Positions 32,855 through 50,400 of a DNA stretch of 64,000 nucleotides are shown in pieces. This DNA comes from Dehalobacter sp. Lineage in GTDB: Bacteria > Bacillota > Desulfitobacteriia > Desulfitobacteriales > Syntrophobotulaceae. Made by a program: the position numbers and the translations under genes. Position 1 is the first letter of the stretch. Each line of letters begins with the position of its first letter. The stretch is taken from the NCBI GenBank assembly GCA_023667845.1, contig JAMPIU010000143.1, positions 126,574-190,573 on the forward strand, read 5' to 3'. The notes beneath the pieces were generated by a model that saw only the letters and a list, made by a program, of their open reading frames with translations, made no database searches and was not told the DNA's origin.

Positions 32855-33574
32855 TTAAGAAAATAGCTGTTCAAGAGGGACAGACAAGCCTTCAAAATAT
32901 AGAGACTTGACCGTATCGTTGCTCTGATAAACGCGGTATTCCCTGATATCCTGTTCGGCAAAGCAGTATAAATACACTTCTCTGCGCCAGGGATTCACAA
33001 TCCAATATTCCAATATACCGGCCTGCAGATATAAACTTAGTTTTTTCAGCAGGTCTTTTTTTTGTGTTGAATCGGACAATACTTCAAGAACCAGGGTAGG
33101 TACGCCGGTATACCTGCCTTTTTCATTGATATTTTCAGTATCGCAAATCACAATCATATCAGGCTGGACAACATTTTTATTGTCACTGACTGAAAGGGTT
33201 ACGTCGAACGGAGAAGTCAGCGGACGGCATTTCTTGCCTTTGAAATAGTTGTACAGGACATTGGATATTTCCATGATGATGCACTGGTGGTCATAAGTAG
33301 GAGAAGCCAAAAGGTAGACCTCTCCGTCAATATACTCGTAGCGATTTTCACTTGATTCAGAGAGCATTAAAAAGTCTTCATACGTGATCTTTTCTTGGCC
33401 CCAGGAATAGCTTTCAGCTCTTTCAGCAACGACTGAAACATCTTTTCCGGGCTCCTCATAGCGTCTAACGACTACTGTTTTTTTGCCGTTTTTCGTGATA
33501 ATAATGTCTTCAAACCAGGCTAGCTTCAGATAGCGGCCAAAATTATTCTGGGCTTCAGTTGAGGTAATTTCCAT
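32855..33574 (-). CDS. Uma2-family PD-(D/E)XK nuclease fused to a Phd/YefM antitoxin-like N-terminus
   Basis: 239 residues. Residues 1-43 (STEAQNNFGRYLKLAWFED, IIITKNGKKTVVVRRYE) match the DNA-binding and dimerisation half of Phd/YefM antitoxins. Residues ~60-239 are a Uma2 (DUF820) domain: YEYIDGEVYLL, DHQ helix, VVQPDMIVI, then LVLEVLSDST and the Lys of DLLKKLSLY, giving an intact PD...ExV...K nuclease core, and EYWIVNPWRREV. The toxin-binding tail of Phd is thus replaced by a nuclease-like domain. Strong GGAGGTG ribosome site. The promoter is followed by two palindromes, suggesting autorepression. No toxin gene is adjacent. Function unknown. Confidence 0.85.
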   Translation of the reverse strand: MEITSTEAQNNFGRYLKLAWFEDIIITKNGKKTVVVRRYEEPGKDVSVVAERAESYSWGQEKITYEDFLMLSESSENRYEYIDGEVYLLASPTYDHQCIIMEISNVLYNYFKGKKCRPLTSPFDVTLSVSDNKNVVQPDMIVICDTENINEKGRYTGVPTLVLEVLSDSTQKKDLLKKLSLYLQAGILEYWIVNPWRREVYLYCFAEQDIREYRVYQSNDTVKSLYFEGLSVPLEQLFS

Positions 33575-33588
33575 TAGAGCACCTCCAC

Positions 33589-33615
33589 ATTAGCTAATAT
33601 AAAAAATTAGCTAAT
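33589..33615 (-). promoter_or_regulatory. Paired palindromic operator before the Phd-Uma2 gene
   Basis: ATTAGCTAAT occurs twice (33589-33598 and 33606-33615), each a perfect 10-bp palindrome, centres 17 bp apart, together an 11-bp inverted repeat. It lies between the -10 box and the ribosome site, where repressor binding would block transcription. Binding by the gene's own Phd-like domain is inferred. Confidence 0.65.
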
Positions 33616-46448: not shown

Positions 46449-47204
46449 CTACCATAATGATTTCAATGGAATAGATAAACCAGTGAAATATGGATGATCT
46501 ACAACATCTTCATCCATGCCTGCTGCAGCTAAGACGTAGGAACCATCCCTGAGTACAAAACATTCGAGGGTTTTCTCAGCCGGATCGACCAGCCAGTAAT
46601 GCGGGATCTTGGTCTTCTGGTAAATCTGCAGCTTCTGCAGACGATCTTTGCGCCTGCTGGATGGGGAAATGATTTCGACTACGATTGTTGGCTGGCCATT
46701 GATACGGGCTTCTTTGATGATCTGTTTTTGCTGCCCGGAAACGTAAAGAATGTCAGGCTGGACCACGTTGATATCTAATAATGTTACATCAAGAGGTGCC
46801 ACAAATACTTCGCCTTCGGGATCATTTCCCCGAAAATGATCTTCAAGAATCCATGTCAACCGAAGCAAAACACGCTGATGGCTGACATTTGGAGCAGGCT
46901 CTTTTACCATAATGCCATCGAGAATCTCGATGCGGTAACCGGGTTCATCAGGTATTTTCAGATAGTCTTCGTAAGTCAGCTTCCTGGAAGATTCTGCGGT
47001 ATATTCGTTTGATTTTTCCTGCACGGAAGAGGCGGTATTTGTGAGTGCGTTGAGAACATCTGCCAGTATATAGCGGTACTGCTTGCCGTTCAACTCGATA
47101 AACGGTATTTTTTTCTCACGTGTATATTTCCAAATAGTCTCGGTTGAAAGATCGAGTGCTTCAGCCAGCGCCTGGGCAGTCATAAGCTCCTTATCCATCG
47201 ACAT
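46449..47204 (-). CDS. Uma2-family PD-(D/E)XK nuclease fused to an excisionase-type HTH
   Basis: 251 residues. Residues ~7-55 are a helix-turn-helix of the excisionase/MerR (HTH_17) type (MTAQALAEALDLSTETIWKY, TREKKIPFIELNGKQYRY). After a ~20-residue polar linker, residues ~75-251 are a Uma2 domain: RIEILDGIMVKEPAP, SHQRVLLRL, VVQPDILYV, IVVEIISPSSRRKDRLQKL with PD, E and K intact, and HYWLVDPAEKTLECF. The ATG at 47204 has GAGGTGAT before it. It is a monocistronic unit between livF and ileS, on the minus strand. DNA-targeted nuclease or regulator is inferred; no partner gene is seen. Confidence 0.83.
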   Translation of the reverse strand: MSMDKELMTAQALAEALDLSTETIWKYTREKKIPFIELNGKQYRYILADVLNALTNTASSVQEKSNEYTAESSRKLTYEDYLKIPDEPGYRIEILDGIMVKEPAPNVSHQRVLLRLTWILEDHFRGNDPEGEVFVAPLDVTLLDINVVQPDILYVSGQQKQIIKEARINGQPTIVVEIISPSSRRKDRLQKLQIYQKTKIPHYWLVDPAEKTLECFVLRDGSYVLAAAGMDEDVVDHPYFTGLSIPLKSLW

Positions 47205-47224
47205 ATCATGATCACCTCAATCAG

Positions 47225-47274
47225 ATTATACAAATTAATACAACCAAAAACAACTAAAAATAATAAAAAATAAC
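47225..47274 (-). promoter_or_regulatory. Promoter of the HTH-Uma2 gene with helically phased A-tracts
   Basis: Minus-strand TTGTTT (47253-47248), 17-bp spacer, TATAAT (47230-47225). Across and upstream of the -35 box the plus strand reads CAACCAAAAA, CAACTAAAAA, TAATAAAAAA, TAAC (47241-47274), four repeats at exactly 10 bp, which should bend DNA. Confidence 0.55.
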
Positions 47275-47336
47275 ATGTACTTAGAAAATAATAGTAAAAA
47301 GCAAATAGTATCTTGTCGTCATCCTCAGCAAGATTC

Positions 47337-47378
47337 AAAAAAAATGCTGGTAACAGTCTGAAAAACTATTACCAGCAT
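47337..47378 (-). terminator. Intrinsic terminator of ileS
   Basis: 13-bp stem ATGCTGGTAACAG (47344-47356) with CTATTACCAGCAT (47366-47378), one mismatch; on the minus strand a run of eight T follows. Confidence 0.85.
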
Positions 47379-47443
47379 CATATCGGTTCAGGGTTACGTA
47401 TTTTTGGGGTTTAGCCCAACATTATACGGTTGAGCCAAAGCAT

Positions 47444-50400
47444 TTAGATCCGTTCGACCCTGACGCCGGAATCATGGTCATTCAGGTTCACCTTAGTCAG
47501 GTCTGCGGTACTCGGTGTTTTTTCGATACTTTCAGCGAGCGTTTCTATTTTGATGTATTCCTGATAGCTTTGAATCGCACTCGTGACTTGGTCATCCCCA
47601 TCGAAATAGATCCTGATGCGGTCCATCATTTCAAAATCATTACTCTTGCGCATCTGCTGGACTTTGGAGACGAGCTCTCTGGCCAGACCTTCATCGATAA
47701 GCTCTCTGGTCAGCGTGGTATCAAGAATAACGAACAGGTTGTTTTCCATTGTGACCGTGAACCCTTCTTTGGCTGAAATCGACACGATGACATAGTCCTT
47801 GACGATATTTAGCTGTTCTCCATCCACATCCGCTGAGAGCGATTCTCCAGCCTCCAGGGCAGCCGCAGCCGTTGAAGCCTCCAGGCTTTCCAGTGCTTTG
47901 CCGAGGAGTTTGATTTTCGAGCCGAAGACGGGTCCGGCAGTTTTGAAGTTTGGCTTTAGAATGAAATTCATGAAGTCGATTAAGTTATTCGCAAAAATAA
48001 CTTCTTTTACATTGAGCTCTTCCTGAATCAGTGGAATCAAATCGGCGATCAGGACTTCATATTTCCCGTCAACTAGGATTTGCTGGATCGGCTGACGGAC
48101 TTTGATCCTGACCTGTTCCCGGGCAGATCTGCCGAGGGTGACTAAATTCCTGACCAAATCCATTCTGTTTTCGACGTTCTCATCGATCATAGTCGAGACA
48201 TATTCCGGATAATCTGCCAGGTGGACCGAAGTCTCACCGGTCAGGTTACGGTAGATTTCTTCCGCCAGATAAGGTGCGAACGGTGCTGAGATTTTGGCGA
48301 TGCCGACCAGGATTTCATACGTGGTGTTATAGACGGCCTTCTTGTCGTCCGACAGGCCGGAATCCCAGAATCTGCGGCGGGAGCGCCGGATATACCAGTT
48401 GGAGAGGTCCTCGCTGACAAATTCCTGTATTTTTCGAACTGCTTTGGTCAGATCATAGACAGCGAGATTGGTCTCAACGTCATTGAGCAGGCCGTGATAT
48501 TTGGAGAGAATCCACCTGTCGAGCTCCGGCCGCTTTTTGTATTCAATATAGAAATCGCTCGGGTCAACCTCATCGGTATTCGCATAGAGCGCAAAAAAGG
48601 TATAGACGTTGCGGAGTGTCCCAAAGAACTTGCTCTGGACTTCCTTGAGGCCTTCGATATCAAAGCGTTTAGGTGTCCAGGCCGGAGACACATAAAGCAA
48701 ATACCATCTGAGCGTGTCGGCGCCGTACTGGTCAAACAGTTCAAACGGGTCTACCGTGTTGCCTTTGGATTTGGACATTTTCTGTCCCTGCTTGTCTAAA
48801 ACCAGATCGTTGACCAGGACCCGCTTATACGGGGAACGGCCCATCACAAAGGTCGAGATCGCGAGCAGGGAGTAGAACCAGCCGCGGGTCTGATCAATCC
48901 CTTCACAGATAAAATCAGCCGGGAACAATTCATGGAAGTTCTCTTTGTTTTCAAACGGATAATGATGCTGAGCATAGGGCATCGCACCGCTGTCAAACCA
49001 GCAGTCGATCACTTCACTGACCCGGGTCATTGGTTTACCGCACTTCTCACAGAGGATATGAACATCATCGACGTAAGGCCGGTGTAGTTCGATGGTTTCG
49101 TCAATTGTTTCAACCGCTTTTTCCACAAGCTCTTTTCTGGAACCAATGGAAGCAGTATGGCCGCATTCGCAGCGCCAGATATTCAGCGGAGTCCCCCAGT
49201 AGCGGTTACGGGACAATGCCCAGTCATTGACATTTTCAAGCCAGTTGCCAAAACGTTTTTCACCGACAAAGTCGGGATACCATTCTACCGTTTTGTTATT
49301 GGCTACAAGCTGGTCTTTCAATTTGGTCATCGCGATGTACCAGCTAGGTTTGGCGTAGTACAGCAAAGGGGTCTGACAGCGCCAGCAGTGCGGGTAATTA
49401 TGCTCCATTTTTTCCTTTTTAAACAGTTTGCCTTCGGCATGCAGCCACTTGATGATATCCAGGTCGGCATCCATCACAAAGCTGTCCTTCCAAGGCGTTG
49501 CGATGAATTTGCCCGATTCGTCCACCGGCTGAAAAACCGGCAGGTTGTACCGCTTTCCGGTGTTATAGTCGTCCTCGCCAAAAGCGGGTGCGGTATGAAC
49601 GATCCCGGTGCCGTCCTCTGTCGTGACATAATCGGCAGTTGTCACAAAAAAAGCTTTTTTGTCGGCGGTTAAAAACGGCATCAGCTGTTCATACTCCATA
49701 TATTCAAGCTCAGTGCCTTTTAATTCCTGCAGGACTTCATAATTGCCGCCGAGTACTTTCGGCGCAAGCGTCTTTGATAAATAATAGATCTCATCATTGC
49801 TGCGGACTTTGACGTAGGTCTCAGTCGGACTGACTGTGAGTGCCGCATTGGAGGGCAGGGTCCACGGTGTGGTCGTCCAGGCCAGGAAATACTCGTCAAC
49901 TCCTTTGCGCTTAAATTTGGCGATGACGGTATTTGTTTTAATTTCTTTATAGCCCAGCGCGACTTCATGGGAAGCAAGTCCGGTTCCGCATCTGGAGCAA
50001 TACGGAAGAATCTTGTGACCTTCGTACATATAGCCTTCTTTGAAGAATTTGTCCAGAATCCACCAGACGCTTTCAATATAATTGTTATCCAGGGTAATAT
50101 ACGGATGATCCAGGTCAATCGAATAACCCATCCGGACCGTCATTTCGCGCCACTGCTTTTCATACGTAAACACAGAGTCGCGGCATTTTTCATTGAACTG
50201 GGCGATCCCATACGCTTCTATACCTTGTTTGTCGGAAAGATTCAGCTGTTTTTCAACTTCGATTTCCACCGGCAGTCCGTGCGTATCCCATCCGGCCTTC
50301 CGTTTGACCTGAAAACCTTTCATGTTCTGATACCGGCAGACGGAATCCTTCAGGGTTCTGGCCATGACATGGTGAATACCCGGCTTGCCGTTGGCTGTCG

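Follow-up and report, generated by a model that had tools for sequence, protein, structure and literature searches.

Proteins of the Uma2 family (COG4636, PF05685) are putative PD-(D/E)XK nucleases, of which the structures 1wdj, 3ot2, 6okh and 9y1l have been solved. According to the available text of PMC551604, a PD-EXX-K site with a migrated lysine was predicted for COG4636 by Feder and Bujnicki, and Uma2 was called a likely solo toxin by Makarova and colleagues in 2009 (PMC2701414, available portion). The described members are not said, in the literature available, to carry a DNA-binding head, which agrees with the statement of an earlier sequence-only reading of this DNA that Uma2 domains are mostly described as stand-alone proteins. 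The words 'fusion', 'Phd' and 'helix-turn-helix' do not occur in the available text of PMC551604 on COG4636, and neither a headed Uma2 protein nor Uma2 autoregulation is described in the titles and abstract openings of the papers found on Uma2 outside subscription journals.

On the DNA-binding side, BldC assembles on direct repeats as a head-to-tail multimer whose protomers are spaced by one helical turn, and it may repress by promoter coverage (PMC5859096, available text). RdfS and Xis share the BldC fold class (PMC11963761, available text). Regulatory and toxic parts are joined in one chain in EzeT of E. coli, whose head quenches the toxin in cis (PMC4963859, available text), and type II toxin-antitoxin systems (Phd/YefM) are two-gene operons with a neutralising segment in the antitoxin.

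The window (the whole stretch of DNA analyzed, 64,000 nucleotides) contains a gene, here named HTH17-Uma2, whose C-terminal domain is a clear member of the Uma2 family and which adds to the members described in the available literature a head and a head-matched promoter motif (Table 1). The sequence-only reading had placed a Uma2 protein with an HTH_17-type N-terminus and a linker at 46449-47274. Both domains were found above their Pfam cut-offs (HTH_17, 29.4 bits against 27; Uma2, 118.7 bits against 27, covering positions 2-171 of the 172 in the profile). The interval was correct in part: 46449-47204 is the open reading frame, while the 70 bases from 47205 to 47274 are promoter region and carry no protein. 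The same domain search identified the protein at 32855-33574, with which the first had been compared, as a Uma2 protein with a different N-terminal DNA-binding head (Phd/YefM-like).

Table 1. Features of the two headed Uma2 genes of the window and of their upstream regions
Feature	Position	Strand	Basis or remark
HTH17-Uma2 gene	46449-47204	-	251 aa; ATG at 47204, stop codon ends at 46449
Winged HTH head (HTH_17, residues 7-51)	47052-47186	-	Pfam; AlphaFold2; Foldseek to Xis and BldC
Linker, variable, probably disordered (residues 53-76)	46977-47048	-	Low pLDDT; low identity
Predicted Uma2 PD-EXX-K nuclease domain (residues 79-247)	46464-46970	-	Pfam; invariant residues; Foldseek
-10 element TATAAT	47225-47230	-	Sequence and family alignment
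TTGTTT at the -35 place (weak)	47253-47248	-	17-bp spacer to TATAAT
Predicted operator, three 10-bp direct repeats (AGTTGTTTTT, GGTTGTATTA, ATTTGTATAA)	47226-47255	-	Sequence; family-wide array
Terminator-like hairpin between ileS and HTH17-Uma2 gene	47343-47379	-	One found; shuffles mean 0.7
Second headed Uma2 gene, Phd/YefM-like half and Uma2	32855-33574	-	Pfam; NCBIfam
Predicted Phd-head operator, two TTAGCTAA palindromes (33590-33597, 33607-33614)	33590-33614	-	Motif match

Conservation was determined from an alignment (A2) of the window protein with 68 full-length HTH17-Uma2 relatives, in which the HTH_17 and Uma2 models both match all 69 members (E <= 0.001). None of the 69 rows departs from E93, H109, P150-D151, E177 or K191, and the earlier remark that PD, E and K residues are kept was borne out in this alignment. 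D151, E177 and K191 fit the PD-EXX-K site with migrated lysine predicted for COG4636. The mean pairwise identity in this alignment was 0.40 for the linker, 0.73 for the head and 0.69 for the Uma2 domain.

The full-length AlphaFold2 model (mean pLDDT 78.8, pTM 0.63) consists of a winged helix, a disordered linker (pLDDT below 50 for residues 56-72) and a Uma2 fold, and thus agrees with the assignment of the head to the HTH class. In the head, helices 10-17 and 21-29 are followed by wing strands 36-38 and 42-46 and by helix 47-58, which together with the HTH_17 match gives the helix-helix-wing-helix topology common to BldC and Xis. By Foldseek, the Uma2 half matched the solved Uma2 structures 6okh, 9y1l, 3ot2 and 1wdj, and the Pukovnik Xis and BldC-DNA complexes were among the top head matches of the full-length model. 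When the head was modeled separately (pLDDT 82.9), Xis, BldC, RacA and MerR-type structures were near the top of the list. TM scores to BldC and Xis were about 0.68-0.77 in both directions with weak E values of about 0.02-0.06; the head fold fits MerR regulators, whose binding sites are palindromic, about as well. The head sequence compared with solved structures returned nothing useful (a repeat protein, a collagen adhesin, and CadR at E 0.16).

Upstream of the HTH17-Uma2 genes, 10-bp direct repeats with the consensus AGTTGATTTT were identified in phase with the -35 and -10 elements. Among 95 upstream regions (those of the 97 distinct HTH17 proteins minus two with N upstream), GTTG pairs at a distance of 10 bp were found 49 times (shuffle mean 0.43, maximum 2), at 20 bp 30 times and at 30 bp 28 times (shuffles about 0.4 each); one pair at 10 bp was found on the opposite strand. 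Alignment of the 89 usable regions on TATAAT places the unit starts at -55, -45, -35, -25 and -15, and the unit at -25 provides the -35 box (spacer, 17 bp). Based on a matrix built leaving out relatives of more than 80% identity, the three-unit array score was significant (p <= 0.02) in 93 of the 95 promoters, part of this score being the promoter itself since the array includes the -35 box. Compared with 422 control upstream regions of the same contigs, the score exceeds their 99th percentile for 94/95 HTH17, 2/31 Phd-Uma2 and 0/18 headless genes; one GTTG pair at 10 bp is found among the controls. Owing to their relatedness, the 95 promoters reduce to 26 representatives at below 70% protein identity, of which six have the exact 10-bp GTTG pair, and the support therefore comes from degenerate, matrix-scored units. 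The matrix and motifs were found and counted on the same data, save for the step of leaving out relatives and for 17 further Phd-Uma2 loci (see below).

The window's own units occupy 47255-47246, 47245-47236 and 47235-47226, as two good units and a weak third, and the array covers the -35 element and runs into the -10 element. The match to the array pattern at 47231-47255 is unique in the window at up to one mismatch (shuffle mean 0.12) and is the only exact one in its own genome. The promoter formed by TTGTTT and TATAAT was missing from the output of the promoter scan. Judged by sequence, the predicted target of HTH17-Uma2 would resemble those of BldC and Xis in its direct repeats, spaced by about a turn of the helix; the head fold and the array, arrived at by independent routes, point to the same BldC-like binding mode. 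The difference is that BldC and Xis are small, act as separate proteins and serve regulons or attachment sites, whereas the HTH17 head is fused to a Uma2 domain and the exact array lies only at its own gene.

The Phd/YefM-like head of the second gene scored 27.1 bits with the Pfam Phd model, below the cut-off of 29.8, and 23.5 bits with the NCBIfam model phd_fam, above the cut-off of 20.8. A third Uma2 protein in the same genome is also Phd-headed. In all five subtype-A proteins scanned, the Phd profile was matched only to position 44 of 74, a part which we take to be the DNA-binding half and not the toxin-binding half; this fits autorepression, because a DNA-binding half would suffice for self-repression. 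TAGCTA was found in 28 of 31 Phd-Uma2 upstream regions (27 of them with two or more copies, usually as TTAGCTAA) and CGTACG in the other three. These hexamers occur in 0/95 and 1/95 HTH17 upstream regions, respectively, and in none of the 18 headless ones. A second Phd subtype (B) carries TCGTACGA-like sites.

A wider and rougher classing gave the following counts. The 97 HTH17 genes had a two-unit iteron in 55 cases, TAGCTA in one and CGTACG in one; the 29 Phd-A genes had TAGCTA in 29 and an iteron in one; and the 13 Phd-B genes had CGTACG in nine, an iteron in one and TAGCTA in one, the last being the mislabeled L131, which was called Phd-B by regular expression and has subtype A tree neighbors and a TAGCTA operator. 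The 36 headless genes were mostly without motifs (TAGCTA 3, CGTACG 1, iteron 1), with three of these rows being label errors (the HTH17 protein L207_1180, wrongly placed among the headless ones, and the truncated L027 and L118). One further row, outside these four classes, was unclassed. In the 17 further Phd-Uma2 loci, whose head subtype was set by HMM and which include two near copies of a known locus and two loci with sites seen earlier, TAGCTA was present in 12/12 of subtype A and 0/5 of subtype B. Three of these five have the exact CGTACG and, by eye, the other two have near variants (such as CGTGCG or CGCACG). At the level of sequence, then, each head type goes with its own promoter motif.

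The occurrence of these motifs was determined in 12 genomes that carry the gene. The exact three-unit array gave nine hits, some overlapping, in seven of the 12, and all lie 45-69 bp before the start of an HTH17-Uma2 gene; five genomes are without an exact array, and the reversed pattern gave two hits. Pairs of TTAGCTAA were found at 15 places, spread over 11 of the 12 genomes, and 14 of these places directly precede a listed Phd-Uma2 gene. The pair at G095:C1:1152371-1152388 is not before any listed Phd-Uma2 gene.

We consider it probable (about 0.72) that each head represses the gene that encodes it and does not aim the nuclease elsewhere. Autoregulation is favored, and fits better than targeting, because head-matched motifs lie at the genes' own promoters and exact arrays nowhere else in the 12 genomes. 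The proposal of the sequence-only reading that a modular family lets different heads direct one nuclease is thus kept in its first half, exchangeable heads (HTH_17, Phd subtype A and Phd subtype B) being found on one nuclease domain. Its second half, that the heads aim at different targets, is not supported, given the pairing of each head type with a motif at its own gene's promoter and the lack of further exact iteron arrays, with a single stray TTAGCTAA pair, in the 12 genomes. HTH17-Uma2 would then be a single-gene, self-regulated nuclease. Its BldC/Xis-like winged helix would bind the row of 10-bp repeats, one repeat per helical turn, and the occupied array, overlapping the gene's own -35 and -10 elements, would block transcription and keep the nuclease scarce. 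The Uma2 PD-EXX-K domain, presumably DNA-cutting and connected to the head by the flexible linker, would act as a solo toxin or defense effector, produced when the repressor has been depleted or taken away. Other Uma2 proteins may meet the same problem with Phd-A heads and TTAGCTAA pairs, or with Phd-B heads and TCGTACGA-like sites.

In a bolder reading, which we regard as less likely than not, the head would coat its own promoter and silence the gene, and the many Uma2 paralogs of a cell would be under separate control. Removal or titration of the head, by proteolysis or by an invader carrying the sites, would give a burst of nuclease. Some bacteria have very large numbers of Uma2 proteins, and matched head-operator pairs would be a first regulatory handle on them, predicting which promoters are of interest, that these nucleases are worth silencing, and that paralogs with different heads do not cross-regulate. 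The gene's own promoter would serve as a simple in vivo reporter for what induces the nuclease. Under the bolder reading, Uma2 nucleases would form a self-limiting effector system made of a single gene, every exchangeable head coming with its matching operator; a toxin-antitoxin logic would then be contained in one polypeptide, and in a very large family.

That the heads instead guide the nuclease to target DNA (phages, plasmids or chromosomal sites) is very improbable. The architecture, a predicted sequence-specific head on a flexible linker to a nuclease domain, is consistent with such a role, as is the PADLOC match of the Uma2 half to the candidate PDC-S03 (131 bits; the head weakly matches mad1, the regulator of MADS, at 32.8 bits). 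We take this label to mean a phage-defense candidate; no paper describing PDC-S03 was found, it is a candidate label only, and HTH17-Uma2 is without constant partner genes nearby. However, exact arrays are confined to the gene's own promoter in the 12 genomes, and cleavage of its own operator would be self-destructive. In its own genome, near-matches at up to two mismatches numbered 77 against 66 for the reversed-pattern control, which is too close to be an excess, and in viral contigs two array patterns matched 3 and 0 stretches, the second pattern being itself an array variant and hence no control. Array-guided targeting in the chromosome or in viruses was rejected, as no clear excess of sites was found. 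Equally, the 10-bp period might reflect promoter architecture (phased, bending T-tracts) or the site of another regulator, unrelated to the head, since the units contain helically phased T-tracts and the -35 box is one of them. This is very unlikely: the most informative array positions are the two G's of AGTTG and not the T-tract, the single GTTG pair at 10 bp in 422 control regions argues against a general promoter property, and other-headed Uma2 genes lack the array and have other motifs.

If the Uma2 half were a dimerization or effector domain, the protein would simply be a transcriptional repressor. The available Uma2 literature is without reported nuclease activity, and catalysis has been lost in some PD-(D/E)XK folds (PMC551604, available text), but the invariance of E93, H109, D151, E177 and K191 and their fit to the COG4636 site argue for a kept nuclease, and no regulon is seen, the exact array being only at the gene's own promoter; we regard a plain repressor as quite unlikely. 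A fused toxin-antitoxin, in which the head silences the nuclease in cis as in EzeT and is relieved by proteolysis of the head, is unlikely. One relative does bear a Phd antitoxin-type head, the solo-toxin proposal for Uma2 fits it, and toxin-antitoxin fusions are on record (PMC4963859, available text). Against it stand the Phd match that stops at position 44 of 74, the predicted disorder of the linker and the frequency of headless Uma2 genes, which are common. To our knowledge, HTH_17 is not a neutralizing domain. Where EzeT is similar in joining a regulatory and a toxic part, the HTH17 evidence indicates DNA binding at the own promoter and not quenching in cis. Autoregulation shares with type II toxin-antitoxin systems an antitoxin-type DNA-binding domain, a predicted operator at the own promoter and the apparent autoregulation of a would-be toxic nuclease. 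It differs from them in that headed Uma2 is one gene with no conserved partner in 78 loci, and in that the Phd match of Phd-headed Uma2 is confined to the N-terminal half of the profile.

The fusion is not confined to one assembly. With the full protein as query, some match was found in 62 of 100 relative genomes and a near-full-length HTH17-Uma2 protein in 23, the own genome included. A relative is encoded by 430 stretches of the genome collection; the best 80 of these 430 match nearly end to end without exception, and the taxa include Syntrophomonadaceae, Peptococcaceae, Halanaerobiales and other records. Across all loci, 106 full-length HTH17-Uma2 frames representing 97 distinct proteins were gathered. 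The HTH17-Uma2 fusion is therefore an old, widespread chromosomal family and not a single-assembly oddity. Strong matches to the head profile were found only in long frames of fused size (41 genomes). A small frame with weak head similarity (G000:C117:20630-20758, 22.6 bits) is the sole other head-like match in its genome at E <= 0.001.

No relatives were found to be encoded in viral contigs, and matches in plasmids and phages were weak and nearly all over the Uma2 part; a phage or plasmid origin is thus unsupported. Nor was an excisionase role supported, given these results and the absence of a constant neighbor such as an integrase in 78 loci. Clustering of the neighbor proteins (loci L034-L113, those without a kept family frame being dropped; in 77 the family gene falls in the central cluster) revealed no conserved neighbor gene in the approximately 78 loci, nor a constant companion methyltransferase as in restriction-modification systems. 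The most frequent neighbor family was ABC-type, at scattered positions in 17 of 78 loci, and the others were in six or fewer. A second Uma2 frame is present in eight of 80 HTH17 loci (L035, L046, L051, L052, L086, L089, L096 and L113), and in L207 Phd-A, HTH17 and Phd-B Uma2 genes lie within about 5 kb.

Within the genus the gene adjoins ileS in G000, G002 and G004. In the window ileS, named from reading its protein and not from a family search, is upstream on the same strand, and given the hairpin between the two a separate transcription unit is likely. The dN/dS over the gene was 0.09-0.13 in three genus members. Based on these values, the placement by ileS and the spread of the family, HTH17-Uma2 is probably a vertically kept, yet dispensable, chromosomal gene. 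At the corresponding place downstream of ileS, the genus member G001 (L168) has an apparent decayed HTH17-Uma2 remnant and G003 an unrelated gene.

Comparison of the window with L171 (G004) over 46449-47600 revealed mostly 93-100% identity in the 3' part of the gene and at the end of livF, against about 40-93% at the end of ileS, in the promoter and in the head. This shift in identity resembles the trace of a homologous recombination tract with one end inside the gene. Because synonymous divergence from G004 is high in the head, an exchange of heads between genus members was considered; it was rejected since the divergence also spans ileS and the intergenic region.

A midpoint-rooted tree was constructed from 92 Uma2 domains, comprising 25 of the 97 HTH17 (mostly a random draw), 18 of the 29 Phd-A and the complete sets of 13 Phd-B and 36 headless domains. 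In this tree HTH17 and a few headless domains fall on one side (100/99), and Phd and most headless domains on the other (100/99). As the two headed groups are opposite in the tree, each with headless relatives, heads were probably fused to Uma2 more than once. The survey of heads covered Bacillota; in 20 long-frame Uma2 stretches no head types beyond HTH17 and Phd were found, the extra length being, by eye, open frame before a headless protein. In an engineered strain of Thermoanaerobacterium saccharolyticum, 20 clustered variants at about 40% frequency were recorded in the Uma2 gene Tsac_2318 (PMC6997586, available text), which may represent gene conversion between paralogs.
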